This document shows, one piece after another, positions 14,108-26,302 of a stretch of 51,044 bases of DNA. The notes under the pieces are model-generated. The model was not told where the DNA came from, searched no databases, and was given only the letters and a program-made list of their open reading frames with translations. The stretch lies in the NCBI GenBank assembly GCA_013812655.1, contig JACCTC010000011.1, positions 1-51,044 of the forward strand. The letters run 5' to 3'. A program made the translations under genes and the position numbers. This stretch comes from Deltaproteobacteria bacterium. GTDB lineage: Bacteria > Myxococcota_A > Polyangia > Haliangiales > Haliangiaceae. Each line of letters begins with the position of its first letter. Positions within the stretch are counted from its first letter, which is position 1.

Positions 14108-15003
14108 CAGTCGTTCTCCAGGGACAAACCGAGGCCCGCGCCGCTCGGCAGCAGCACGGGACCAAGACGCAGGCGATCGCGCAGCGAGGTCTTCTTCTTC
14201 TGGGGCGTCGGCTTCTTGAAGTCGCGCAGGTCGGGCGGCAGCAACGAGTCGTCGGCCTCGACCTGTTCGCGTGGCTTGTAGTTGAGCAGCGCGTCGACGA
14301 CGCTCCACGCGTAGATCCCGAAGAACGCGGCACCCGTCGCGATCTCGATCTGCTGGAGGCGCCGCACACCTGGGCCGTCCTCGAGCGGTACCTTGCCGAC
14401 GAGGCCGTACTTGGTGGCGAGGTAGAGGAAGATGCCCGCCGAGGTCCCGAACGTCACGCCCTGGCCGGACGCGAACAGGATGCCCTTCGCGGTCTGCTTG
14501 TTCTGGAACTGACCGGCACCGAACGGCACGAAGTTCACGAAGTACGGCCGGGTCTCGACGACACGGAGGCTCTCCTTGAACTTGCGGATGCGGTCGCGGT
14601 CCTCCTCGAGCTTGCGGAGCTCGGCATCGCGCCGCGCCTGCGCCTCGACGTCGGCGCGCACCTCGTTGAACAGCCGGACCTGACCTTCGGTGAACAGCAG
14701 CGGCTCGAGCGTCTTGCTCGGATCGAGCGCGAGCGCCGCCTTGAACTCGGTCTTCGCCTCCTCGCGGTTGCCGCCCTCGTAGTGACAGACGCCGAGCAGC
14801 ACGTGCGCCTCGACGAGGTCGGTCGGGTTCGCGAGCTGTGGTTTGGGATAGAGCAGGTAGTTCAGCAGCGGCGCCGCGGACGGGCAGTCCTTCGCCTTGA
14901 AGTTCGCGCGCGCGCGATCGAGATCCTGGCTCGGGCCCGCCGTGGCGACCCGACTCGCGAGCACGCCGGCGAGCACGCCGACCGCGATCAGCGCGGCACG
15001 CAT
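14107..15003 (-). CDS. TPR-like exported membrane protein
   Basis: A 298-residue protein with an N-terminal signal peptide (MRAALIAVGVLAGVLASRVATA). A helical, TPR-like region follows (about 25-115, including EAKTEFKAALALDPSKT), then a charged coiled segment (about 125-150), two hydrophobic segments (about 165-220) and a basic C-terminus with a Pro/Lys patch. The N-terminal part resembles envelope scaffolds in myxobacterial kinase clusters. It overlaps the upstream kinase gene by 16 bp and the downstream activator gene by 1 bp, so it belongs to the same operon. A link between the envelope and the kinase/FHA pathway is an inference. Confidence 0.7.
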
Positions 15004-16775
15004 GTCACCTCCGCGCTGCCGCCCGCGTTGACCTTCTCGACGATGGGTTTGGGCTCGACGCCCTCGCCGAGGAACTCGACCTTGACGTTCTTGCTCGACG
15101 ACAGCGTGTTGCCGAAGGTGACGGTGTACGGCTTGTCGAGCTGCCACGTCTTGCCATCGACGGTGACCCGCGCGGTCTCGTCAGCGCACTTCGCGGTGAG
15201 CTGCGCCGGCAGGAACGGCGTCGTGATCGTGGTGTCCTCGCCGGGCGAGAGCTTCTGCGTGAACGGCTGGCAGCAGCCGCTCTGGTTGCGGACCGAGATC
15301 GTGGTCTCCGCGGCGAGATCGAGCTCGACGATGCCGTTCGCGGGGACTGGCCGCCACGTCGGATCGCCCTCGACCTGGTACTCCGCGTTCTTCTCGGGGA
15401 ACGCGCGGAGCTTCGTCCGCTTGCCAGCGACCACGGTCCCGCCGGCATCCGGCGTGACTGCAACGGTCGGACGATTCGAGCCGGTGGGATTGACCGGGTC
15501 GTCGACGCTCGCGACGCCCGCATCGACCGGCGCGGGCACGATGTCGTGCGCGGTCTGGGTCGACGGCACTGGCGTCCACGCGAGCGTGCCAGGACCGAGC
15601 GTGCTCGGCACGTCGACCTCTGGAGGCTTCGAGCGCCGATGGATCATGTACGCGCCGAACGCGATCACGCCGATCGCGCAGATCGCCATCGCGCCCGCCT
15701 TGATGCGCGTGCGGCGATTGATGCCATCGAGGATCGCGATGACCTTCGCGTTGTCGGCGTCGATCGTGAGGACGCGGTCGAACACGTCGAGGGCGTGGGC
15801 GCGGTCGTTCGCGGCGAGCAGCGTGATGCCGTGCCGGGTCAGGTGATCGACGAGCCGTTCCTCGAGCGCGAGCTCGTAGGCGCCGGGGCTCCCGAAGTAG
15901 CGGCCGAGCTCGGCCTGCACCTTGTCGGCGGCGATGCCGCTCTCCTCGAGGTACGCCTCGAGCGCGGTCACCATCTCGCCGATCGCGGGAAACCGATCGT
16001 TCGGCTCGATCGCCATCGCACGCAGGATGATCTTGCCGAGCCGGTTGCCGATCCGCGCATTCGCGGTCCGCGGGTCGACGAACTTGCACTCCGCGATCCG
16101 CTTGAGCACCTCGTGCGGGTTCTTGCCCTCGAACGGCAGCTTCCCGACGGTCAGCTGGTAGAGCACGATGCCCGCGGCGAACACGTCGGTGCGGTAGTCG
16201 ATCGGCCGGCCCTCGACGTGCTCGGGCGCCATGTACGCCGGCGAGCCGAGCAGCTGCCCGGTCACGGTGAGCCGCTCGAGGTCCACCATGTGCGAGATCC
16301 CGAAGTCCATCAGCTTCACGACCCCGTCGGAGCGGATCATGATGTTCTCGGGTTTGACGTCGCGGTGGAGGATGCCGGCGGAGTGCGCGTGGGCGAGCGC
16401 GCGGCAAACTTGAAGGATCACCATCGCCCCGACCTCGGGGAACGTGATCGGGCGGTCGGTGATGACCTGCTTGAGGGTGCCGCCCTCGATGAACTCGGTG
16501 ACGATGTAGCTCGAGCCGAGCGCGGCGGCGTCCTCGGATCCCGAGTAGTCGAAGATCTCGAGGATGTTCTCGTGGCGGAGCTTCGCGACTGCCTGCGCCT
16601 CGCGCTCGAAGCGATCGCGCGCCTCCTGGTAGTCCGACAGGTGCTTGTGGAGGATCTTGACGGCGACGACGCGCTTGAGCGACCGGTCGAGCCCGCGATA
16701 CACGACGGCCATCCCGCCCTGGCCCACGCGCTCGAGCAGCTCGTACTTGTCGAGGACCTGGCCGACCTGGATCAC
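14988..16775 (-). CDS. Transmembrane Hanks-type Ser/Thr protein kinase
   Basis: A 595-residue kinase. The N-terminal catalytic domain (about 10-275) has the Gly-rich loop GQGGMAVV (18-25), catalytic Lys40 in VAVKIL, HRDVKPEN (137-144), DFG (157-159) and APE. A juxtamembrane helical region (about 300-355) precedes one transmembrane helix (about 360-378). The C-terminal 210 residues lie outside the cytoplasm and contain Pro-rich and beta-rich segments with a CC pair. All catalytic residues are present. It heads an operon with a membrane protein and an FHA-containing sigma-54 activator, so it probably phosphorylates Thr residues that the activator reads. Confidence 0.93.
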   Translation of the reverse strand: MIQVGQVLDKYELLERVGQGGMAVVYRGLDRSLKRVVAVKILHKHLSDYQEARDRFEREAQAVAKLRHENILEIFDYSGSEDAAALGSSYIVTEFIEGGTLKQVITDRPITFPEVGAMVILQVCRALAHAHSAGILHRDVKPENIMIRSDGVVKLMDFGISHMVDLERLTVTGQLLGSPAYMAPEHVEGRPIDYRTDVFAAGIVLYQLTVGKLPFEGKNPHEVLKRIAECKFVDPRTANARIGNRLGKIILRAMAIEPNDRFPAIGEMVTALEAYLEESGIAADKVQAELGRYFGSPGAYELALEERLVDHLTRHGITLLAANDRAHALDVFDRVLTIDADNAKVIAILDGINRRTRIKAGAMAICAIGVIAFGAYMIHRRSKPPEVDVPSTLGPGTLAWTPVPSTQTAHDIVPAPVDAGVASVDDPVNPTGSNRPTVAVTPDAGGTVVAGKRTKLRAFPEKNAEYQVEGDPTWRPVPANGIVELDLAAETTISVRNQSGCCQPFTQKLSPGEDTTITTPFLPAQLTAKCADETARVTVDGKTWQLDKPYTVTFGNTLSSSKNVKVEFLGEGVEPKPIVEKVNAGGSAEVTCVPR

Positions 16776-17065: not shown

Positions 17066-17137
17066 AGGCACATAGCTCAGTGGGAGAGCATCACCTTGAC
17101 ACGGTGGGGGTCTGCGGTTCAATCCCGCATGTGCCTA
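17066..17137 (+). tRNA. tRNA-Val(GAC)
   Basis: A full cloverleaf can be drawn: acceptor AGGCACA/TGTGCCT, D stem GCTC/GAGC, anticodon stem TCACC/GGTGG with loop TTGACAC (anticodon GAC), T arm TGCGG/CCGCA with loop TTCAATC, and discriminator A. CCA is not encoded. Its 3' half from the anticodon loop onward (17096-17140) is supplied by the integrated element and keeps the tRNA intact. Confidence 0.95.
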
Positions 17138-17140
17138 CGA
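17096..17140 (+). repeat. attL: left 45-bp core repeat of the integrated element
   Basis: A 45-bp stretch from the anticodon loop to the end of tRNA-Val, identical to 26213-26257. Identity stops abruptly on both sides. It is the left junction of the element and also rebuilds a functional tRNA 3' half. Confidence 0.92.
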
Positions 17141-17156
17141 ATATTGGGAAAAGATA

Positions 17157-17186
17157 ACGGCCGGTTGCTGATGAGGCGCTGGCCGT
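17157..17186 (+). terminator. Element-borne tRNA terminator hairpin
   Basis: Arms ACGGCCGG (17157-17164) and CTGGCCGT (17179-17186) just after attL. A near-identical hairpin lies after attR (26273-26302). The element therefore appears to carry a diverged copy of the sequence that normally follows tRNA-Val. The T tract is weak. Confidence 0.6.
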
Positions 17187-17210
17187 TGTCCGTTTCGGAG
17201 ACCGGCCGAT

Positions 17211-17229
17211 CACCACCTGGATCACCACC
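17211..17229 (+). repeat. Left inner 19-bp repeat, probable integrase arm site
   Basis: CACCACCTGGATCACCACC, identical and in the same orientation to 26099-26117 near the other end. It lies 70 bp inside attL and contains two ATCACCACC-like units. This arrangement fits arm-type sites for a tyrosine integrase or its excisionase. Confidence 0.6.
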
Positions 17230-17335
17230 GGACCTATGCGCAACCTTTGCACCCATCCGAACACCGGCCACTACCCGATTCGGGCTGCAGGGCATGTGAT
17301 CGATTGCCTGCCGGGTGGACTGAGCGCCGTCGCCG

Positions 17336-17989
17336 TCAGTCTTTCTGCGCAGCCACTGCCACGTCGTACTCCGATCGATGTCGGCGATCAGCGGCAGCGT
17401 GGGCGGCAGTTGAGCGAGCCTCCTCCTCGGCCGCCTCTGCGGGATAGAGCTTCGCATAGCGCGACCACGCCTCCGCGTTCGTCTTCCACTCGGCGACGGC
17501 ATCCTCGTCGGTCAGCAGTTCCACGAGCTCGCCGCAAAACGGGCACTCCTTGGTGCCGGGCGGGAACACGACATCGTGCTCCTGGTCGCAGTGCGAGACG
17601 GGGCACCACAGGTCGGCGGGCTGAGATGCACCCGGATACCCCATCTCGGGGAAGCAGAGCTGCGAGTCGAGATACCTGCAGCGAACGCCGCGGCTGGCGG
17701 ACTCGGCGACCAGTAGTCCACGAAGCTCTGCGCTCTCCCCTTTGCCAAGCGTCTCTCGCATGGTGGCGTCGTCAAGGTCGAGGAGGCGCGCCTTGTCGTA
17801 CAACCACTCGATGACGCGGCGGGCGGCCTTCGCCTCCTCGAACCCGGCGGCAATCTGCGGAGCCATGCGCACCGCCGCATCGATCGCGACGTGTACCGCG
17901 ACGGCGCGTGCTTGCGATTCCTGGGCTCGCATCATTCGCCAGAGGAAGTAGACGCCCACGACAACACCCACGACGATGACGAACCCCAT
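17336..17989 (-). CDS. Membrane-anchored protein with zinc-ribbon motif, unknown function
   Basis: A 217-residue protein on the opposite strand to the rest of the element. Residues 1-18 form one hydrophobic segment (MGFVIVVGVVVGVYFLW), then a helical region with many Ala/Arg/Glu (about 25-85). A central domain carries paired cysteines (LWCPVSHC and CPFCGELVELL, about 125-160), a plausible zinc ribbon. The C-terminus is an Ala/Glu/Arg helix. The ATG at 17989 is chosen because it starts directly at the hydrophobic segment; the frame is open further upstream. No family is recognised. Its solitary orientation at the left end suggests a cargo gene with its own promoter, but that is inference. Confidence 0.65.
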   Translation of the reverse strand: MGFVIVVGVVVGVYFLWRMMRAQESQARAVAVHVAIDAAVRMAPQIAAGFEEAKAARRVIEWLYDKARLLDLDDATMRETLGKGESAELRGLLVAESASRGVRCRYLDSQLCFPEMGYPGASQPADLWCPVSHCDQEHDVVFPPGTKECPFCGELVELLTDEDAVAEWKTNAEAWSRYAKLYPAEAAEEEARSTAAHAAADRRHRSEYDVAVAAQKD

Positions 17990-18220
17990 AGCGCATGCTC
18001 GCACGGGTTGGATGCGGTCCGATCGCTTCTGACTCGCGCACTCGACGCCCTCGAGCCCAAGCGAGCCGCCAAGGGCTGACCTCTGACGTGCGTCGTCGGA
18101 CCCCCGTGCGAGTCTTGGGTGACCGAGCAACCATCCAGGCTGATCCCTTGGACGGGGCCGCTGCTCCCCGGCGCGGCCTGCTCGGTACTTCGTAGAACCG
18201 GGGCGGACCGGGGACTACGA

Positions 18221-19009
18221 GTGGCGAAGAAAACAGCGCGCGCACAGCCTGCGCCAAAGCCGCAAAAACGGAGGCAACGAGCTGAACCGCCGGAGCCGCT
18301 CGATCTCGAGATCTCAAGCATCGGGCATGAAGACCCCGACGTTCGGCGCGCTCGTCAACTCGCGATCGTTGCCGCTGCCAATGCTCGTATCGCGGCGGAC
18401 CCGAGAGCGTTTGACGCCGCGCTGGCCGCGTTGAAAGGCAAGAGCAAGAGCACGAGAGACGCCGGTACCGACGACACTGAACAGGCGGCCTCTGCGATCA
18501 TTTCGACTTCGACTGACCGCGCGGCGAACGTCGAGCGTTGGGCCGCGCTGCTCACGATGTTTCGCGAGGCTCGCAGACGTGACATCAAGATAGCGAAGGT
18601 GCGCGACAACTTCGAGGCGCTCGGATCCGGCTTCAACGCATCGGAGACCAGGCCGCCCGAGTCGCGGTTTGCTCGTCCGGGTGACCGCGTGCAATTCATG
18701 CCGCAGCCGTCGCGAGCAGTAGAGATGGCGCGGTCCTCGGGCGCGTTGAACAAAGCAGGATACGCCGAGCGCGGCGTGCTCGAGCCTGTCGAGTGGCGAT
18801 GGGCACGCAGCATCGCGGAGTTCATCCACTGCCAAGAGGACCGCGAGGCGACGGCAGAGGCGTACGCGCGTGCGGACAACGTCGCATGGCCGCCGCGCAC
18901 GCCGGCGGGCGCGATCGATACGGTTGCCGTGAAGGCCTCGCTGGAGAAGATTCGCTCTCTCATAAATCGGGCGACCGCATCCAATGAACGTCGACGGCCG
19001 CTGCGGTAG
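18221..19009 (+). CDS. Basic protein of unknown function
   Basis: A 262-residue protein with a Lys/Arg/Pro-rich N-terminus (KKTARAQPAPKPQKRRQR) that could be a flexible DNA-binding tail. Two helical regions follow (about 50-85 and 115-155), and a C-terminal domain contains WRWARSIAEFIHC and a Cys. The GTG at 18221 follows a GGGGA sequence; an in-frame GTG at 18119 would add 34 residues. No family is recognised. It precedes the excisionase-primase cassette by about 65 bp on the same strand, so it may act in replication or its control. Confidence 0.6.
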   Translation: MAKKTARAQPAPKPQKRRQRAEPPEPLDLEISSIGHEDPDVRRARQLAIVAAANARIAADPRAFDAALAALKGKSKSTRDAGTDDTEQAASAIISTSTDRAANVERWAALLTMFREARRRDIKIAKVRDNFEALGSGFNASETRPPESRFARPGDRVQFMPQPSRAVEMARSSGALNKAGYAERGVLEPVEWRWARSIAEFIHCQEDREATAEAYARADNVAWPPRTPAGAIDTVAVKASLEKIRSLINRATASNERRRPLR

Positions 19010-19074
19010 CTGCTGCCCGTACGCGAGCCCCCTCCCCATACGTACTTCGACATAGCGGGGTCGTCGCACATAGC

Positions 19075-19389
19075 GTGCTGATAGTGAGCACGACGAAATC
19101 AACGCACGTCTACGGCTGGCCCGACGTTATGCGCACGGCCATCGCCGCGCAGTACATCGGCGGGTCGCGCTGGATGATTCTCCGCGCCGTCGAGGCCGGG
19201 CAGTTGGCGCCCGCAGGGAAGCGGGGCCGATCCTTCACGTTCACGAAGGAGTCGCTCGATCGCTTTCTGATCGGAGAGAGGCAGGGACGGCCAGTTGCAT
19301 CGGATAACGCATCGCCGCGAGCTCGCGCTGCGTCGGTGTCGGGTGACGCCCTCGATCGACTCGCGGCGCTTCGGCGAGGTGCGCGATGA
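19075..19389 (+). CDS. Excisionase-like HTH protein
   Basis: A 104-residue protein with a MerR/excisionase-type winged helix-turn-helix (about 18-65: AIAAQYIGGSRWMILRAVEAG, then a wing and RSFTFTKESLDRFL). This resembles HTH_17 excisionase/regulator domains that bend DNA during phage excision or act as element regulators. The GTG start at 19075 is uncertain; another GTG at 19084 is equally plausible and neither has a good Shine-Dalgarno. It is the first gene of a four-gene cassette whose members overlap by 4 bp each. Confidence 0.72.
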   Translation: MLIVSTTKSTHVYGWPDVMRTAIAAQYIGGSRWMILRAVEAGQLAPAGKRGRSFTFTKESLDRFLIGERQGRPVASDNASPRARAASVSGDALDRLAALRRGAR

Positions 19390-19655
19390 CCGCGCGCCCC
19401 ATCACCGAGCTCGAGCAGTTGGCAGACGCCCGCTTGCGGTTCGCCGGCCTAGTCGAGTTGCTCGGACCCGACGAGCTCGCGGCTCTCGAGCTGTGCGCGC
19501 ATGGGCTCGTGCGGGGCCGTGACGTGTACGGCGAGCTCGTCGTTAACACCGACACCCGTGACATGCGCGACGAGGCCATCGCCGAACTGCGGGACGCGAT
19601 GATCTACAGCGCGGCCGGGCTGCTGCGATTGCAGCGCACCCGAGGCACGCCGTGA
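19386..19655 (+). CDS. Small helical protein of unknown function
   Basis: An 89-residue, mostly helical acidic protein (LGPDELAALELCAHGLVRG in the middle). Its ATG overlaps the excisionase-like gene stop (ATGA, 19386-19389), and its stop overlaps the primase GTG (GTGA, 19652-19655). This coupling suggests a role in the replication module. No family is recognised. Confidence 0.65.
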   Translation: MTARPITELEQLADARLRFAGLVELLGPDELAALELCAHGLVRGRDVYGELVVNTDTRDMRDEAIAELRDAMIYSAAGLLRLQRTRGTP

Positions 19656-20707
19656 AGGCCGAGGACCTTCGTGCCGCGTTCTCGCCGGGATTCCCCGTGA
19701 TGTTCCTCGATCACCTCGGCGTGAAGTACCAGCGCCGAGGCGACGAGCTGCGGACGAAGATCTGCCCCACGTGCGGGCCGCGCAACCGAGACGCGGTGTG
19801 CATCGCGGCGGATCACGGCGCATGGGTTGACCAGGCGCACGGCTGCAAGGGGGACATCTTCGCGTTAGTCGCCGGCTACGCGGGGCTCGATATCAAGCGC
19901 GACTACCCCGCCGTGCTCAAGCTCGCCGCCCAGATCGCGGGCGTCTCGGATGACGGTCCGGATCCGGATCGTGCGCGGCGAATCGACGAGCAGCGGCGAC
20001 GCGCCGAGGAGTGCGAGCGCCAAGCGAGAGCCGAGCGCGCCGCAGTCGTGGCGACCATGCCGGCTCGGTGGGCATCGCTCGATCGCGGCAACCCTGCGGG
20101 CGAGTCGTATCTCCTCGCGAGAGGGATTGACCCGGCGGCTCTGCGCGGACGAGGGGACGTCGTGCGGTTCGCGCCGAACGGAGATCCGGCGGTAGCCCTC
20201 CGCGACCTCGAGACGGGCGCGATCGTCGGCATTCAGTACCGCCGACTCACCGGCGATACGAAGCTCATCGCCGAGCGGGGCTCGCAACTCGCAGGCTCGG
20301 CGCTATTCGGGCGCCTCGACGACATCGATCCGGAAGGCGTGGACGTCGCGATCATCGTCGAGGGTCTCGCCGACACGCTCGCCGCGTGCCTCGCGTTCCC
20401 TACGGTCGCCGTGTTCGGCGCGCCGGGCGCTAGCCAGATAGCGCGCATCGCCTCGGCGGTGGCGCCTCGCATCGCCGCAGCTCGTGGATGGTTGCTCCTG
20501 GTCGTCGACAACGACGCCGCGGGCACCGACAACGCAAGCGATGCCATCGTGGAGGCAGTCCGGGCCGGACTGAGCCTCGCCGATGCGGAGGCCGGGCTCG
20601 ATGGTGCCAGCACGATCCGGCTCGTCGACATCGGCTCGCACCATGACCTCGCAGACGCCTACGCCGCGGGCTGGCGTCACGAATGGCCGCGGGCGGTGGC
20701 CTCATGA
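19652..20707 (+). CDS. Zinc-finger/Toprim DNA primase
   Basis: A 351-residue DnaG/phage-type primase. An N-terminal CHC2-like zinc module uses Cys38, Cys41 and probably Cys50 or Cys65 (KICPTCG...HGCKGDIFALV). The linker (about 105-135) is Arg/Glu-rich. The Toprim domain has Glu237 in IIVEGLADTL and the DxD pair in VVDNDAAG (Asp286/Asp288). It lacks the C-terminal DnaB-binding domain of cellular DnaG. It should prime replication of the element, together with the DnaB-like ATPase encoded directly downstream with a 4-bp overlap (ATGA, 20704-20707). Toprim phage primases often occur with an adjacent helicase, as here. Confidence 0.85.
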   Translation: MKAEDLRAAFSPGFPVMFLDHLGVKYQRRGDELRTKICPTCGPRNRDAVCIAADHGAWVDQAHGCKGDIFALVAGYAGLDIKRDYPAVLKLAAQIAGVSDDGPDPDRARRIDEQRRRAEECERQARAERAAVVATMPARWASLDRGNPAGESYLLARGIDPAALRGRGDVVRFAPNGDPAVALRDLETGAIVGIQYRRLTGDTKLIAERGSQLAGSALFGRLDDIDPEGVDVAIIVEGLADTLAACLAFPTVAVFGAPGASQIARIASAVAPRIAAARGWLLLVVDNDAAGTDNASDAIVEAVRAGLSLADAEAGLDGASTIRLVDIGSHHDLADAYAAGWRHEWPRAVAS

Positions 20708-21957
20708 CCGGGGCTGAGGTCGCGCGCGCGAAGGCGACGCAGAAGCTCGCGCTCGTGCCACCCGACACCGACGAGATGGGGACCGCCGTGGATGAGATCG
20801 ACGAGAACGGGAACCAGATCGAGATCGAGGCAGGCGAAACGATCGAGCCCGGCCTCGGTCCGGCGAGCGCGGATTCAGAGCCGGCCGGTCCTGCTGCGCC
20901 AATCGTGCGAGCCGATCCGTTGATCACTGTCGGGCAGGCGATCGAGAGCCTAGTGAAACTGTCAGCCTTGCCGGTCTACCCAACACCGTTCCCGACGGTG
21001 AATGACGCGATCGGGTTCGGCGGGTTCAAGGCCGGACAGAAGTACGACGCGGCCGCAGGGACCGGACGCGGCAAGACCAGTTTCGTCACGTGCATCGGCA
21101 CGCACCACGCGGCGCACGGGGACACGCTGATCGCCACCTACGAAATGGCACCGGCCTACTACGTGGCGCGCGCTGCGAGCGGGGCCCTCGGTGTCCATAG
21201 CAACGCGATCGTGCGAGGCGAAGTTCCCGCTCGCGATGTTCTGCGGGCCTTGCCTCAACGGCTCGTCTTTCTGCACCGGCCGACCCTCGCGATCCTTTGC
21301 GCGCAGGCCAAGCGCATCGCCGACAAGACCGGCCGCGCGCCGCTCGTGATCGTCGACTACATGCAGAAACTCGCCGAGCAGATCATGGCAGGTCAGCCGA
21401 GGGCCGATGCGCGGCTCGCGACCTCGGAGGCAAGCGCCGGGCTGATCGATCTCGCAGACGAGACGGGCGCCGTGGTGCTGGCGGTGTCCGCGACTTCGCG
21501 AGCCAACGGCAAGCGAACCGCCGATCCGCGCAAGCTTGCTCCGTACGATCTCGTAGACGTGGCCAAGGATTCCGGCTCGGTGGAGTACGACTCGGCCGGG
21601 CTGATCGTCCTGTCGCTTGGCGAGGAGTACGAGGGCGACGAGCGACACGCCACGATCACGGTCGCCAAGGCGCGGTTCGGGCAGGAGTGCCACATCGAGG
21701 CCCGATTCAACGGACCGCGCGGTACGTGGCGCGACCTCGGCCGCATCATCTCGGGCGACCGCGGCAAGAGCGCTCTCAAGCAACCGCTGCCCGATGCCAT
21801 CCGGGAGGCGCTGCGGATGCCGGCAGCAAGCCGGACCGAGCTCGCCACCCGTGTCAGGCGGGGCAAGGGAGCAACGCTCGCGGCGATTGGTCAGATGATC
21901 GAGGCCGGAGAGATCGGCGAGACGGATGGCCGGCTTGAGATCCTGAGGGTCGAATAA
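20704..21957 (+). CDS. DnaB-like replicative helicase (RecA-fold ATPase)
   Basis: A 417-residue ATPase. A Glu/Asp-rich N-terminal 70 residues precede a RecA/DnaB C-terminal-type fold with Walker A AAGTGRGKTS (about 117-126), a DnaB-like EMAP segment, and Walker B PLVIVDYMQKL (about 213-223). The C-terminal 60 residues (about 355-417) look like a separate helix-turn-helix or winged module. The DnaB N-terminal primase-contact domain is absent. The ATG at 20704 overlaps the primase stop by 4 bp; a longer start at 20683 exists but does not fit the coupling pattern. It probably unwinds DNA for element replication. Confidence 0.82.
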   Translation: MTGAEVARAKATQKLALVPPDTDEMGTAVDEIDENGNQIEIEAGETIEPGLGPASADSEPAGPAAPIVRADPLITVGQAIESLVKLSALPVYPTPFPTVNDAIGFGGFKAGQKYDAAAGTGRGKTSFVTCIGTHHAAHGDTLIATYEMAPAYYVARAASGALGVHSNAIVRGEVPARDVLRALPQRLVFLHRPTLAILCAQAKRIADKTGRAPLVIVDYMQKLAEQIMAGQPRADARLATSEASAGLIDLADETGAVVLAVSATSRANGKRTADPRKLAPYDLVDVAKDSGSVEYDSAGLIVLSLGEEYEGDERHATITVAKARFGQECHIEARFNGPRGTWRDLGRIISGDRGKSALKQPLPDAIREALRMPAASRTELATRVRRGKGATLAAIGQMIEAGEIGETDGRLEILRVE

Positions 21958-21977
21958 TGGCCAAGTCGCTCACAGGC

Positions 21978-22167
21978 GGTTCTGAGAGCCTGGAACCGAC
22001 CCCCGTACAAGCGGTTCAGAACCGCTCTAGAACCGGTTCCAGCGGTTCCCCTAAAGGGGGGAGAACCCGGAACCGGTTCCAGGAAATCAGGCATCCCTTG
22101 ACCAGCGGCGGCTCCACTGCGTTCCGCCGCACGCGGTCCGAGACAGGGAATGCCGTGGAGCGGAACC
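21978..22167. repeat. GAACC/GGTTC palindrome cluster, candidate replication origin
   Basis: In 190 bp there are eleven half-sites, five GGTTC and six GAACC. They include two perfect GAACCGGTTC palindromes (22030-22039 and 22070-22079), the 15-bp palindrome GCGGTTCAGAACCGC (22011-22025), and outer arms AACCGCT/AGCGGTT that nest one palindrome in another. A CCCCTAAAGGGG hairpin sits at 22048-22059. An 80-residue open frame here (21957-22199) overlaps the helicase stop but has repeat-derived, low-complexity composition, so I treat the region as noncoding. The position between two replication helicase genes suggests an origin or operator array. Confidence 0.7.
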
Positions 22168-22195
22168 GGCTCAACCGAGCATGCGGGACCGTCCG

Positions 22196-23746
22196 ATGAT
22201 CCTCCGCGTCTACCAGGTCGGGGCCGTCGAAGCGGTCCGCGAGCAGTACCGAGCCGGCTGTCGTTCCACGCTGATCGAGCTCCCCACCGGCTGCGGCAAG
22301 ACCCTCGTCTTTGCGGAGATCGCGCGGCTGGTCGTGGAGCGTGGCCGCCGCGTACTCGTGCTGGCCCACCGAACCGAGTTGCTCGATCAGGCTCTCTCGA
22401 AGCTCGAGGCGGCTGGCGTGCGTGCGGCCATCGAGCAGGGAGCGAAGCGGGCCGGTGATGCTCCGGTGGTCGTGGCGAGCGTGCAAACCCTCCGAGGCGC
22501 ACGGCTGGCGTCGTGGCCGGTCGATGCGTTCGCTCTGATCGTCATCGACGAGGCGCACCACGCGACCGCTGCCAGCTACCGGGCGGTGCTGGAACACTTC
22601 CGGGCCGCCCGCGTGCTCGGAGTGACCGCGACCCCCGATCGCGCGGACGGCCAAGCGCTCGGGCAGGTCTTCGAATCGGTGGCCTATCGCTACGGGATGC
22701 GCCAGGCGATCCGGGACGGATGGCTCTCTCCGATCCGGGCCCGGCGCGTCCTGGTCGATGGAGTCGACCTGGGAAGCGTTCACGCGCGCGCTGGCGACTT
22801 GGACCGGGCCGAGCTCGCCGTTGTCATGGCGGACGAGAAGGCGCTCCACGGTGTTGCTGCGCCGCTGCTCGAGCTCGCGGGCGACCGCCGAACGATCGTG
22901 TTCGCAGTAGACGTGGCGCACGCCCGGAGTCTCGCCGAGGTGCTGAACCGCTACGAGCCGGGCGTGGCCATGGCGATCGATGGGACCGCGACCGCGACCG
23001 AACGGGCCGCCATGCTCGAGGCGTTCAGGGCCGGGGCGTTCCGCGTGCTGGTCAACTGCGCGCTGTTCACGGAGGGCTTTGACGAGCCGAGCCTGGCTTG
23101 CGTCGCCATCGCTCGGCCGACCAAGTCGCGCGCCCTGTATGCGCAGATGATCGGCCGAGGGACCCGGCTGTATCCCGGCAAGGCCGACTGCCTCGTGCTG
23201 GACTTCACGGGGCCCGCGGGCCGTCATCGCCTCGTAGGACCGGCCGATGCGCTCGCAGGCGAGACGCTCGACGATGACGTGCGCGACCTGGTGAACGCGA
23301 TGATCGCGGCCGAGGGCTGGCAGCTCGAGCTCGAAAGCGTGCTCGAGGCCGCAGCCGTCGACGCCGTGAAGCAACGCGATCAAGCGAAGGTCACGGCCAT
23401 CGCGCGATACCGAGCCGAGGCGCTCGATCCGTTCGTCGGTGACATGCCGGCGATGCAAGCGGACCGATGGGCGCGCGATCTCGCAACCGAACGCCAGCGG
23501 CGCGCCCTCGAAGCGTTCGGCCTCGACAAGCTCCCCGCCGAGCTGACCAAAGGCGAGGCGTCACGGTGGTTCTCGGCGCTCGAGGCTCGCCGCGTCGCCG
23601 GCCTCGCGACACTTCGCCAGGTGCGAAGGCTCAAGCGGTACCGGATCGACGCGCGGCGGATGACGGTCAAGCAGGCCGGGGAGACTCTCGATCGCTTGAG
23701 CGCTGGCGGGTGGCGTCCCTCGGCTCTATGGGGTGTGGCCTCGTGA
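22196..23746 (+). CDS. SF2 DEAH-type DNA helicase
   Basis: A 516-residue superfamily 2 helicase of the XPB/SSL2-ComFA-like class. It has a QxxAV-type N-terminal motif, Walker A LPTGCGKT (29-36), DEAH at about 118-121, TATP at 144-147, and motif VI QMIGRGTRLYPGK in the second RecA lobe. The C-terminal 130 residues are basic and helical. The ATG at 22196 is preferred over the ATG at 22181 because a GGGAC sequence sits 6-8 nt upstream. It lies immediately after the palindrome cluster, so it may act at origin melting or replication restart. A defence role cannot be excluded. Confidence 0.85.
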   Translation: MILRVYQVGAVEAVREQYRAGCRSTLIELPTGCGKTLVFAEIARLVVERGRRVLVLAHRTELLDQALSKLEAAGVRAAIEQGAKRAGDAPVVVASVQTLRGARLASWPVDAFALIVIDEAHHATAASYRAVLEHFRAARVLGVTATPDRADGQALGQVFESVAYRYGMRQAIRDGWLSPIRARRVLVDGVDLGSVHARAGDLDRAELAVVMADEKALHGVAAPLLELAGDRRTIVFAVDVAHARSLAEVLNRYEPGVAMAIDGTATATERAAMLEAFRAGAFRVLVNCALFTEGFDEPSLACVAIARPTKSRALYAQMIGRGTRLYPGKADCLVLDFTGPAGRHRLVGPADALAGETLDDDVRDLVNAMIAAEGWQLELESVLEAAAVDAVKQRDQAKVTAIARYRAEALDPFVGDMPAMQADRWARDLATERQRRALEAFGLDKLPAELTKGEASRWFSALEARRVAGLATLRQVRRLKRYRIDARRMTVKQAGETLDRLSAGGWRPSALWGVAS

Positions 23747-23876
23747 GGGCGATCGAGCGTGGCCGGAACCACACGGGGGAGGGGCCCGCGCCTGGCCCCC
23801 GGCGTCCTAGGGGGTGAGTGGGCGCTCGCACGAATTCTCAGCGAAATGGCAGGCGAACTTTTGAAAGGAGCACCGA

Positions 23877-24077
23877 ATGAGGAACACGAAGGCACGATCG
23901 CGCAACGCTCAACCCCGAACAGTCGATCCACTCGCCGCGCAGATCGCGATGTGCGACCAGATACTCGCGGTCGGACACGCTGCTCTCGCGAAGTTCTACG
24001 CACACGCCGTACGACGCGCCGAGAGCAAGCCGCGGAAGCCGCGCAGGAAGCCGCGCAAGCCGCGCAGGAGTGCATGA
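23877..24077 (+). CDS. Small basic protein with Lys/Pro/Arg tail
   Basis: A 66-residue protein preceded by a strong Shine-Dalgarno (AAAGGAG, 7 nt before the ATG), so I regard it as real. The middle (LAAQIAMCDQILAVGHAALAKFY) is a short amphipathic helix, and the C-terminus is a KPRKPRRKPRKPRR tail built from DNA repeats of about 9-12 bp. The tail suggests nucleic-acid binding. Its stop overlaps the next gene by ATGA (24074-24077). The 130 bp before it, from the SF2 helicase stop, hold no other gene. Confidence 0.6.
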   Translation: MRNTKARSRNAQPRTVDPLAAQIAMCDQILAVGHAALAKFYAHAVRRAESKPRKPRRKPRKPRRSA

Positions 24078-24490
24078 TGGGGAAGCACACGAAGCTCTCC
24101 GCGCCCGCGCCGAACGCCAGCGGCCCGACGGCTCGCCATGCTCCACTGCGCGCGCCCGATGCGCCGCTTGTGCAGGATGTGGAGGCACTCGTCCGCCGCA
24201 CGGCCACGCACCTGGAGCGCTTGCTGACCTCGGTCGAGAACGCGCTCGCAGCCGGCGAGGCGAACAGCTCCACGATCCGCGAGTCGGCGGCACTGGCGCG
24301 CGCGATCTCGGGACTGTCGACCGAGATGCGAGCTCGCGAGAAGGCCACACGGCAGGCCGAGGAGGCCGAGCGTCGACGCTTCACGCACGAAACGGCGCTC
24401 GCGTTCGTTCGCGGACTGCCCAAAGCCGAGCGGCAGCACTTCATCAGCATCCTGGCCGACATCGACAGCGGCCGATCGGGCCTCGCGTGA
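24074..24490 (+). CDS. Coiled-coil protein of unknown function
   Basis: A 138-residue protein coupled to the small basic protein gene by a 4-bp overlap and preceded by AGGAG. Residues about 1-35 are Pro/Ala-rich; about 40-105 form a long Ala/Glu/Arg helix likely to be a coiled coil; the C-terminus (RGLPKAERQHFISILADIDSG) is a short helical module. The frame is open well upstream, but the overlap and ribosome site favour this start. No family is recognised. Confidence 0.6.
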   Translation: MMGKHTKLSAPAPNASGPTARHAPLRAPDAPLVQDVEALVRRTATHLERLLTSVENALAAGEANSSTIRESAALARAISGLSTEMRAREKATRQAEEAERRRFTHETALAFVRGLPKAERQHFISILADIDSGRSGLA

Positions 24491-24520
24491 GGACTGAATT
24501 CGGGTGTGCCGAGTTGATTG

Positions 24521-24558
24521 CGATTGCGCATGACGAAATCGATTGCGCATGACGAAAT
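24521..24558. repeat. Two adjacent 19-bp direct repeats, possible operator
   Basis: CGATTGCGCATGACGAAAT occurs twice without a gap (24521-24539 and 24540-24558), preceded by a partial copy. It sits 44 bp upstream of the RHH-integrase operon and overlaps a weak promoter (TTGCGC at 24543-24548, 18-nt spacer, TAGGCT at 24567-24572). This fits an operator bound by the ribbon-helix-helix protein. Confidence 0.55.
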
Positions 24559-24601
24559 AGACCCGGTAGGCTTACCCTCATGACCCAAGGAGCCAACTAA
24601 G

Positions 24602-24829
24602 ATGCGCCTCGAGATGTCACCCACCAAGACGAAGACCAATCCGCTCGGAGCTGGCAGGAATCCACGCGCGGGCGAGCCGGCCGACTACAGATTGACGATC
24701 AGGCTCACGGTCGCCGAGCGCGCCGCGTACCAGTTAGCCGCGGCTGCCGCGGAGCTGACGCTCACGGAGTGGGTCCGCGCGGCGTGCGCAGCCATGATGC
24801 GCGGCCGACGGGCGAAGGGAGGGCGGTAG
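24602..24829 (+). CDS. Ribbon-helix-helix-like DNA-binding protein
   Basis: A 75-residue protein with a MobC/CopG-like pattern: a short beta strand (YRLTIRLT) followed by two helices (VAERAAYQLAAAAAELTLTE and WVRAACAAMM). It is preceded by a good AAGGAG ribosome site 9 nt before the ATG. The stop is 2 nt before the integrase GTG, so it is cotranscribed with int. It probably binds the nearby 19-bp repeats as an autorepressor of integrase expression. A mobilisation role like MobC is possible, but no relaxase is present. Confidence 0.7.
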   Translation: MRLEMSPTKTKTNPLGAGRNPRAGEPADYRLTIRLTVAERAAYQLAAAAAELTLTEWVRAACAAMMRGRRAKGGR

Positions 24830-24831
24830 CT

Positions 24832-26196
24832 GTGGCCAACTGGATCGAGCGCTGGGGGGATGTCATCGCCAGCAAGCCCGAGCAGCCGGGCGTGTGGAAG
24901 CGCCGCGACGGAGGTTTCCACGTGCGAGGTCGCGCGACGGACCCACGCACCGGCCGACTCCGCGAAGTGAATCGCGCGCTCCCCGACTGTCGGAAGGCTC
25001 GCGAGGCCGCGTCCGTGCTCGAGGGCGAGCTTGGGAAGGTCCGCGCGGGGGGCGCATCGCAGGAACTTGCCGGGTTCCCGCGGTTCGCCGATTACGCCGT
25101 GGACTTGATGGAGCGCAAAGTGTCGACGGGCGTGATCGCGTCCGCGGCTGGTCGCGAAAAATGGGCGAGCATCCTGGCGAAGCACCTGATCCCGCGGTTC
25201 GGGGACTGGTACCTCGACAAGATCACGAAGCGCGAGATCGAGGCGTGGAAGGTGGACGTAGCGAACGCCGGCTATGCACCGACGACCGGAAACACGCTGC
25301 TCGCGGTGCTCAAGACCATCACGGCCGCTGCGAGCGATGACTATGACGGCCTCGCCGATGCGGCTGTGAAGGTCAGCCCGTTCGAGACCAAGGCGCATCG
25401 GGTCTACACCGACGAGCAGCCCAACGCGTTCCGGCTCGAGGACGTGGTCCCGTTCCTCGACTCGATGCGAGTCCGCTGGCCCGCGCACTACGCGATGGTC
25501 TACCTCGGCATGTGGACCGGTCTGCGGCCGTCGAGTCTTCGCCCGCTCCGTCGACGCGGGCCGCAGCCGGATATCGACTGGATAACGGGCACGCTGCGGG
25601 TTCGCCGGTCGCATACGGTCGGCAACGAGACCATGCTCGGCACGAAGAACGGCCACGATCAGGTCCTCAAGCTATCCCCCGAAGTCGTGGAGGTGCTGCG
25701 ATGGCATGTCGAGCGGCTCGAGCTGGAGAACGTGAAGCGGGCGAAGCGCTCCCCGGAGAACGCCGCCGCGATGGATGCGAGCGAGCTCCTTTTCCCGGCA
25801 GAGCCGAACGGCCGAACGCGGGGCGGCGGGTTCCGCACGAAGTCGTCGCTCGGCCTGGCCTTCGAGGACGTCGGCAAGGTGATCGGCCTGGCCTACAACG
25901 TCACTCCGCGCGCGCTGCGGCGTTCGTTCCAGGATCTGATCCGGGCGGCTGCGGTGAGTGATGTCGTCGCCCGCGCCGTCTGTGGCCACCGGACGCCCGC
26001 GATGACGGCGCACTACTCGACCGTTCGCCCTGACGAGCAGGAAGCCGCGATGGGGAAGATCATCCACCTGGCGACTGCTCGGCGCGCGCTTGCCGAAACA
26101 CCACCTGGATCACCACCCGAGCGCTCCGAGACGCTCGCTGCTGCACCATCACCACCGGGGCAACCTACGGAAACCCAAGAGCGAGCGAGCGGTTAG
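24832..26196 (+). CDS. Tyrosine recombinase (integrase)
   Basis: A 454-residue integrase. The N-terminal arm-binding-like part (about 1-75) is followed by a SAM-like core-binding domain (about 85-175) and a catalytic domain (about 200-400). Catalytic residues seen are Arg232 in GLRPSSL, Lys272 near TKNGHDQ, Arg363 in TPRALRRSF, His386 in CGHRTPAM, and Tyr395 in HYS. The first position of the usual HxxR box is Arg360, not His. The start is GTG at 24832, 2 nt after the RHH gene stop. It ends 16 bp before attR and its last codons include the inner 19-bp repeat, so it is adjacent to its attachment site as expected. Confidence 0.92.
   Translation: MANWIERWGDVIASKPEQPGVWKRRDGGFHVRGRATDPRTGRLREVNRALPDCRKAREAASVLEGELGKVRAGGASQELAGFPRFADYAVDLMERKVSTGVIASAAGREKWASILAKHLIPRFGDWYLDKITKREIEAWKVDVANAGYAPTTGNTLLAVLKTITAAASDDYDGLADAAVKVSPFETKAHRVYTDEQPNAFRLEDVVPFLDSMRVRWPAHYAMVYLGMWTGLRPSSLRPLRRRGPQPDIDWITGTLRVRRSHTVGNETMLGTKNGHDQVLKLSPEVVEVLRWHVERLELENVKRAKRSPENAAAMDASELLFPAEPNGRTRGGGFRTKSSLGLAFEDVGKVIGLAYNVTPRALRRSFQDLIRAAAVSDVVARAVCGHRTPAMTAHYSTVRPDEQEAAMGKIIHLATARRALAETPPGSPPERSETLAAAPSPPGQPTETQERASG
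26099..26117 (+). repeat. Right inner 19-bp repeat, probable integrase arm site
   Basis: An identical copy of 17211-17229, CACCACCTGGATCACCACC, inside the 3' end of the integrase gene. It lies 96 bp inside attR. A related CATCACCACC sequence follows 40 bp on. Confidence 0.6.
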
Positions 26197-26212
26197 GATC
26201 GACTCGGAGTCT

Positions 26213-26257
26213 TTGACACGGTGGGGGTCTGCGGTTCAATCCCGCATGTGCCTACGA
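26213..26257 (+). repeat. attR: right 45-bp core repeat (tRNA-Val 3' half remnant)
   Basis: A perfect copy of 17096-17140: anticodon loop, T arm and acceptor 3' strand of tRNA-Val(GAC) with no 5' half. It marks the right end of the element. Confidence 0.92.
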
Positions 26258-26272
26258 CGATTGAAGAAACTG

Positions 26273-26302
26273 ACGGCCGGTCGCTGACGGAGCGCCGGCC
26301 GT
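26273..26302 (+). terminator. Chromosomal copy of the tRNA-Val terminator hairpin
   Basis: Perfect 8-bp stem ACGGCCGG (26273-26280) and CCGGCCGT (26295-26302) following attR. It is the counterpart of the hairpin at 17157-17186 and probably terminated tRNA-Val before the element inserted. Confidence 0.6.

Follow-up and report, generated by a model that had tools for sequence, protein, structure and literature searches.

We analysed the entire contig C50 (51,044 nucleotides; hereafter the window) of a Deltaproteobacteria bacterium genome (GenBank assembly GCA_013812655.1, contig JACCTC010000011.1; 508 contigs, 8.1 Mb, 93.5% complete), and we describe an element inserted in a tRNA-Val gene of this contig. 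On balance, the element is probably a hitch-hiker of phage derivation that can excise and replicate itself, with a phage satellite as the likeliest kind; we hold this view with modest confidence. We propose that the element was assembled from early genes of temperate phages. Its tyrosine integrase, aided by an excisionase-like helix-turn-helix (HTH_17) protein, would integrate it at the 3′ end of tRNA-Val(GAC) and could also excise it; after excision, a primase, a DnaB-like ATPase and a superfamily 2 (SF2) helicase would replicate the resulting circle from a motif cluster that lies between the dnaB and SF2 genes. Movement from cell to cell would most likely depend on packaging of the DNA by a co-infecting tailed phage, as with minimal satellites such as the phage-inducible chromosomal minimalist islands (PICMI).

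Integration at a tRNA-Val gene

ARAGORN calls an intact tRNA-Val gene (anticodon GAC) at positions 17066-17138 on the + strand, and this gene is the insertion target. Repeat comparison identified a perfect 45-nt direct repeat that consists of the last 43 bases of the tRNA gene plus two more; its copies form the cores of attL (17096-17140, + strand) and attR (26213-26257, + strand), lie 9117 nt apart from start to start, and extend to 51 nt at 96% identity. An element integrated in tRNA-Val between 45-bp perfect direct repeats had been reported in a preliminary description of the sequence, and is confirmed by these two methods. An exact repeat of this length is far beyond chance, and its coincidence with the 3′ end of a tRNA gene is what a tRNA-targeting integrase would produce. 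The 9.1 kb between the repeats contain eleven open reading frames (ORFs), ten of them on the + strand, and are about 90% coding, with the main ORFs intact. To the left of the element lies a protein kinase gene and to the right, by eye, lie infC, rplT, pheS and pheT; both flanks look chromosomal.

The family comparison covered 30 genomes, with the window's own genome included in all match counts. When the left flank was used as the query, all 30 genomes had matches, many of them to other kinase genes. We examined 26 relative loci (L085-L110), nine of which had the tRNA within the fetched stretch. At eight of these nine, the element was not found 3′ of the tRNA by BLASTN or by TBLASTN with the element proteins plus seven related integrase and excisionase sequences, one 41-nt BLASTN match apart; the downstream sequence available at the eight loci ranged from 336 to 1503 bases, but was 93 bases for L092. 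In G010 and G006, the tRNA is followed by infC. The ninth locus, in G005, is occupied: an excisionase homolog (41-47% identical) lies on the tRNA side and, on a separate contig, the gene for an integrase with 74-75% identity precedes a core that matches over 43 nt without a difference, with infC beyond it. A tRNA-Val site without the element, which the preliminary description had suggested looking for, is thus seen in genomes of the same genus. Together, the att repeats, the gene set and the relatives that lack the element at this site suggest that the element can excise.

Two hairpins may reflect the insertion event. The first, directly after the tRNA and inside the element (17153-17190; arms 17153-17162 and 17181-17190), is a candidate replacement terminator for the tRNA, carried in with the element. 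The second, beyond attR (26273-26302; by eye), is probably the host terminator displaced by the insertion; several relatives have a GC-rich hairpin immediately 3′ of tRNA-Val (by eye), which the hairpin beyond attR matches and to which the one inside attL is similar.

A replication module with phage relatives

The ten main proteins of the element were scanned with profiles from Pfam, PHROGs, NCBIfam and PADLOC, and the 66- and 80-amino-acid ORFs with those from Pfam and PHROGs. These scans bear out the gene set of the preliminary description (integrase, Toprim primase, DnaB-like protein, SF2 helicase, excisionase-like HTH protein and ribbon-helix-helix (RHH) protein), with the Pfam matches to HTH_17, RHH, Toprim_3 and Phage_integrase all below the curated cut-offs. 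The replication genes are all on the + strand, and encode a zinc-finger and Toprim primase (19652-20707; phrog_2249, 7e-7; Toprim_3, 0.003), a DnaB-like replicative helicase/ATPase (20683-21957; DnaB_C, 3e-19; Walker A motif GTGRGKTS) and an SF2 helicase of the phage/RadD-like type (22196-23746; ResIII, 1e-31; phrog_16, 6e-93). The zinc-finger and Toprim motifs of the primase are conserved in alignments. PADLOC matched the SF2 protein and, weakly, the primase, and no other protein. The tyrosine integrase (24832-26196, + strand), which has the motifs TGLRPSS, TPRALRRSF and GHRTPAMTAHYS, matches phrog_1 (6e-32) and Pfam Phage_integrase (4e-5); its start is most likely the GTG at 24832 and not the longest-ORF start at 24769. 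The excisionase-like protein, of the Xis/AlpA type (19075-19389, + strand), matches Pfam HTH_17 (1.3e-4), and HTH_17 homologs adjoin related integrases.

The replication genes are of phage type. DnaB and SF2 genes are adjacent in IMG/VR contigs L123 and L124 (DnaB 41% identical in L123 and 48% in L124; SF2 53%), and contig L122 has an SF2 gene, whose product is 55% identical, beside a DnaB-like gene. Profile tests identified terminase large subunit genes in L122 and L124, and a portal gene in L124. Among 50,697 phage records, 2,281 have a match to the SF2 protein. A primase 50% identical to that of the element is encoded in the 9.9-kb IMG/VR contig L114, which was found only by an alignment query, earlier scans with the primase against viral contigs, phages and plasmids having given nothing; for both L114 and L123, no structural gene was seen by eye in the fetched stretch, which did not receive a full scan. 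An additional locus, G376:C50 (L039), has a terminase gene together with a homolog of SF2 (38%) and a partial match to the primase, and an integrase that is 44% identical is encoded in the 47-kb IMG/VR contig L117, which has a minor-tail match. At E 1e-5, no relative of the integrase or of the primase was found in the phage record collection or in 72,556 plasmid records. Matches to the DnaB-like protein in 26 of 56 genomes, the window's own included, were not used as relatives; most are about 30% identical, and they probably represent host DnaB in part.

The 224-bp gap between the DnaB and SF2 genes contains a cluster of short motifs (21957-22181), spanned by the 80-amino-acid ORF. There are 11 copies of GGTTC/GAACC in the gap, whereas 1000 shuffles averaged 0.94 and never reached 11; the densest non-overlapping 224-bp stretch elsewhere in the window, sampled every 20 bases, has four. 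Motif clusters are found at the same position in the phage-contig relatives, with ten copies of GGAACC/GGTTCC in L123, seven of CGTTCC in L124 and nine of CCCGCA in L122. The clusters in L123 and L124 are inside an open frame, possibly the 5′ end of the SF2 gene, and that of the window is in the 80-amino-acid ORF, in a different frame; some phage origins lie inside replication genes. We predict that 21957-22181 is a replication origin with iterons, and refer to it as origin-like.

A replication module and an origin-like region would also suit an integrative plasmid-like replicon, one that, once excised, is copied as a circle and passes between cells by natural transformation or in vesicles, with no dedicated helper. 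Transfer of a satellite by competence has been reported in Streptococcus thermophilus (PMC13376191). However, no partition or copy-control gene was recognised in the element with Pfam, PHROGs or NCBIfam, and no plasmid relative of the integrase or primase was found. We consider this account improbable.

No recognisable virion or transfer genes

No virion, packaging, relaxase or secretion gene was recognisable in the element with Pfam, PHROGs or NCBIfam, four of the ten main proteins being unmatched; the earlier statement that no capsid, packaging, relaxase or secretion gene can be recognised holds to this extent. The proteins without a functional assignment are those of 217, 296, 89 and 138 amino acids, together with the 66- and 80-amino-acid ORFs. 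Since these leave room for such a gene, we use "no virion or transfer genes" to mean that none is recognisable.

The RHH protein (24602-24829, + strand), which is weakly NikA/MbpA/MobA-like and encoded two bases upstream of int, bears on a different route of transfer. Two perfect tandem 19-nt repeats (24521-24558) lie just upstream of its gene, and are a candidate operator or Int/RHH binding site. Both features would be expected if the element were a hitch-hiker on conjugation, in which a NikA-like RHH protein and an oriT let the relaxase of a conjugative element carry it; in Pfam, the RHH protein matches a NikA-like family best (6.7e-5), and NCBIfam gives MbpA/MobA at 0.07-0.13. However, every RHH match that has a curated cut-off falls below it, and RHH regulators are common. 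Moreover, the element has no relaxase match, there is no match to the relaxase family PF03432 in its own genome (other relaxase families were not searched), and, as noted above, the plasmid records hold no relative of the integrase or primase. Carriage by a conjugative element is, in our judgement, improbable; the phage-type replication genes favour a link to phages over one to conjugation.

Relatives of the modules within the bacterial family

Integrase matches occur in 19 of the 30 family genomes, and primase matches in seven. Five integrase loci at about 50% identity were fetched, and four of these are at tRNA-Val or tRNA-Gly genes; the contig of the fifth, L075, ends before any tRNA. Other gene content differs among the loci. 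The primase in G005:C976 is 57-60% identical to that of the element, and the other primase loci are mosaics, with D5/DUF5906-like or other helicases and other integrases. In G029:C203, an integrase, an HTH_17 protein, a DnaB-like protein, a homolog (38-40% identical) of the 138-amino-acid protein O8 of the element, and a primase are encoded within about 11 kb, together with a 1153-amino-acid protein that has a very weak internal-virion match (0.018). No flanking direct repeat that would mark att sites, and with them the borders of this locus, was found. In G005:C671, about 7.7 kb span a primase, DnaB and an integrase, in that order; six other proteins of this locus were scanned, and none had a virion match save for one weak match to a head-scaffold PHROG (8.7e-5). 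A primase scan of genome contigs gave two loci, L115 and L116; two large proteins in L116 that look virion-like by eye matched no PHROG.

The protein with the head-scaffold match has 138 amino acids and is encoded at 14749-15165 of G005:C671 (L213); a homolog at 125-487 of G005:C976 (L212) has no such match. This small protein family is a possible capsid-hijacking factor, and no capsid gene was recognised alongside it.

These loci also bear on whether the element is instead a decaying prophage, in which int, xis and the replication block of a temperate phage have been retained and the late genes lost. Tailed-phage contigs encode relatives of its recognised replication and recombination proteins, as such an origin would predict, and related integrases are found in elements of 14.7-18 kb between tRNA repeats (L073, L077 and L081), one of which, L073, has terminase and tape-measure matches. 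By contrast, the element shows neither a truncated late gene nor a long non-coding remnant; it is densely coding, with intact main ORFs and a perfect 45-nt att repeat, and G005:C671 is another small primase-bearing locus, whose six scanned proteins gave the one weak head-scaffold match noted above. We regard decay from a prophage as unlikely.

Several findings weigh against the satellite reading. First, searches of the element with Pfam, PHROGs, NCBIfam and PADLOC turned up no TerS, helper, antiphage or capsid-remodelling gene, and the best matches of the RHH protein are to mobilisation proteins. Second, the window's own genome has no match to the PF04860 portal or the PF05065 HK97 capsid families, and one weak match to a terminase profile (8e-4). 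Third, among the loci examined, the window alone has the order primase-DnaB-SF2-O8-RHH-Int, so that the gene package is known from a single genome. Fourth, no terminal overlap of 15 nt or more joins the three G005 fragments, C816 (tRNA-Val end), C976 (primase) and C335 (integrase end), into one element. Lastly, the motif cluster is not a general feature of SF2 loci, with 6 of 77 loci at ≤1/100 shuffles as compared with three control stretches (at least one locus had no control, and the control of L122 is itself among the three significant ones), which is why we call the region origin-like only; the close relatives show it most clearly (all three with SF2 identity >50%), plus L150, L174 and L178. 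As regards the second point, a review (PMC11389934) points out that elements of the hitch-hiking kind can also be present where the genome has no possible helper, so a missing match to a resident helper does not decide the question.

The proposal of the preliminary description that this is an undescribed family is partly supported: relatives of the modules exist in the same bacterial family, as counted above, but in mosaics, and the gene order that it had suggested searching for was seen in full in the window alone. A broader reading, which we put forward tentatively and rate as somewhat doubtful, is that the Kofleriaceae, probably the family of this bacterium, harbour small phage satellites of an undescribed family with one primase lineage in common, which would keep a phage-type origin, swap helicase and integrase modules, and contest tRNA-Val and tRNA-Gly sites; at least some members (G005) may have a stand-alone scaffold-like protein that redirects the capsid of a helper. 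The origin, in that joint proposal, would be the motif cluster, placed either between the two helicases or within the 5′ end of SF2.

Comparison with known satellites and other elements

A generic satellite, as outlined in PMC13376191, is bounded by att sites, is 7-20 kb long, and has integrase, regulation and replication genes and no structural genes. The element agrees with this outline in size and content, the absence of structural genes being judged by profile searches that left four main proteins unmatched. PICMI, which are known from Vibrionaceae, can be without identifiable packaging genes (PMC10803314). Relative to the PICMI described there, the element is likewise small and integrated, with an integrase, a putative AlpA/HTH_17-type regulator and a primase, no identifiable packaging or capsid-remodelling genes, and a small gene overlapping or adjoining int (PMC10803314). 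It differs in its replication genes, since the PICMI primase is of the DUF3987/DUF5906 type, whereas the element has only Toprim matches and separate DnaB and SF2 helicases, and in its location, PICMI being beside fis and the element in tRNA-Val between the protein kinase gene and the infC-rplT-pheS region (PMC10803314). For the integrase and the AlpA/HTH_17 regulator of PICMI, the element shows the phrog_1 integrase match (6e-32) and Pfam matches to an integrase (4e-5) and to HTH_17 (1.3e-4) that both lie below the curated cut-offs.

Phage-inducible chromosomal islands (PICIs) have as their hallmark TerS or another packaging-redirecting gene, and P4-like satellites have the capsid-size or helper-control genes sid, psu and delta. 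Searches of the element with Pfam, PHROGs and NCBIfam gave no match to TerS or another packaging-redirecting gene (O8 and others being unmatched), to sid, psu, delta-like or capsid-size genes, to own capsid genes as in capsid-forming PICIs (cfPICIs), to the relaxase and type IV secretion genes of integrative and conjugative elements (ICEs), or to the terminase, portal, capsid and tail genes of a complete prophage. Features of integrative and mobilisable elements amount to the weak NikA-like RHH match, with no relaxase match in Pfam or NCBIfam. As P4-like satellites and PICIs are generally described, the element resembles them in having an integrase, an excision regulator and its own replication genes without a full virion set, and differs in that its replication genes resemble separate early genes of tailed phages. 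The nearest phage contigs, L122-L124, share the DnaB-SF2 neighbourhood with a motif cluster between the genes, and L114 shares the primase; in L122 and L124, however, terminase genes follow (and a portal gene in L124), and none is recognised in the element.

Tycheposons and virion-encapsidated integrative mobile elements (VEIMEs) are small integrative elements of marine bacteria, with a recombinase and replication genes, that are proposed to travel in phage particles. Compared by this general description, the element is alike in combining a recombinase and replication genes on a small integrative element. Because a defining feature of each of PICMI, PICIs, cfPICIs, P4-like satellites and ICEs was looked for and not found, we do not file the element under any of them; it fits none of the named satellite families that were tested. 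P4-like satellites, PICIs, tycheposons and VEIMEs are all named in a review (PMC11389934).

A search of the open-access literature found no described myxococcal phage satellite. If the element is a satellite, such parasites extend to Kofleriaceae, and detection models that rely on TerS or on primases of other types could miss its gene set. The motif cluster between the DnaB and SF2 genes provides a testable candidate origin for the element and its phage relatives.

Other genes of the element and neighbouring loci

The sole gene opposite to the others (17336-17989, − strand) encodes the 217-amino-acid protein, which has, by eye, an N-terminal membrane-like stretch and C-terminal zinc-ribbon-like cysteines. 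It matches no family above cut-off in Pfam, PHROGs or NCBIfam and had no relative in the viral-contig scan; a weak PHROG match to holins (0.004) was not trusted. The next gene, O2 (18119-19009, + strand), encodes a protein of up to 296 amino acids whose start is uncertain. It matched none of the other 34 genomes searched within the taxonomic order and nothing in the viral-contig scan, and its predicted structure was not used (mean predicted local distance difference test score of 40). The gene for the 89-amino-acid protein (19386-19655, + strand) overlaps each neighbour by 4 nt, and a partial homolog (46% over 58 amino acids) is encoded near the primase gene in G027:C572.

The basic 66-amino-acid ORF (23877-24077, + strand) has no Pfam or PHROG match and overlaps the next gene, O8, by 4 nt; its similarity to an 88-amino-acid ORF upstream of the O8 homolog is not significant. 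O8 (24074-24490, + strand) is predicted, with low confidence, to be helical. We do not claim it as a small terminase, since the single-sequence AlphaFold2 model, although helical, is weak (predicted template modelling score of 0.32); a structure search gave no match with E ≤ 0.001, and two viral-contig scans gave no relative.

Other loci of the family have distinct contents. L073 (G018:C8, 2305-18110) is a 15.8-kb element between tRNA-Val(CAC) 3′-end repeats with the same integrase type, and its genes match a terminase large subunit, a tape-measure protein and a ParB-like/methyltransferase protein. L077 (G022:C11, 2495-17264) is a 14.7-kb element in tRNA-Val(GAC) that encodes a 1472-amino-acid protein with weak baseplate-like matches; unlike that of the window element, its integrase gene adjoins the tRNA. 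L081 (G024:C80, 1705-19707) is an island of about 18 kb between tRNA-Gly 3′-end repeats, with more than one integrase and genes that resemble, by eye, a type I restriction system. Short contigs L035 and L036 (G024:C172 and C153) begin and end with near-identical genes but differ in between; both encode a primase and an ATPase, and they appear to be a repeated host context with variable inserts. L076 (G018:C73) and L078 (G018:C303), near tRNA-Gly, have ten gene families in common and a related integrase; L075 (G026:C524) and L074 (G024:C16) have, by eye, the same gene set. L076 encodes an M23 peptidase, an SLT transglycosylase and many small membrane-like proteins, with three proteins matching no PHROG, and this set of loci could represent a lineage of membrane-containing (tailless) prophages.

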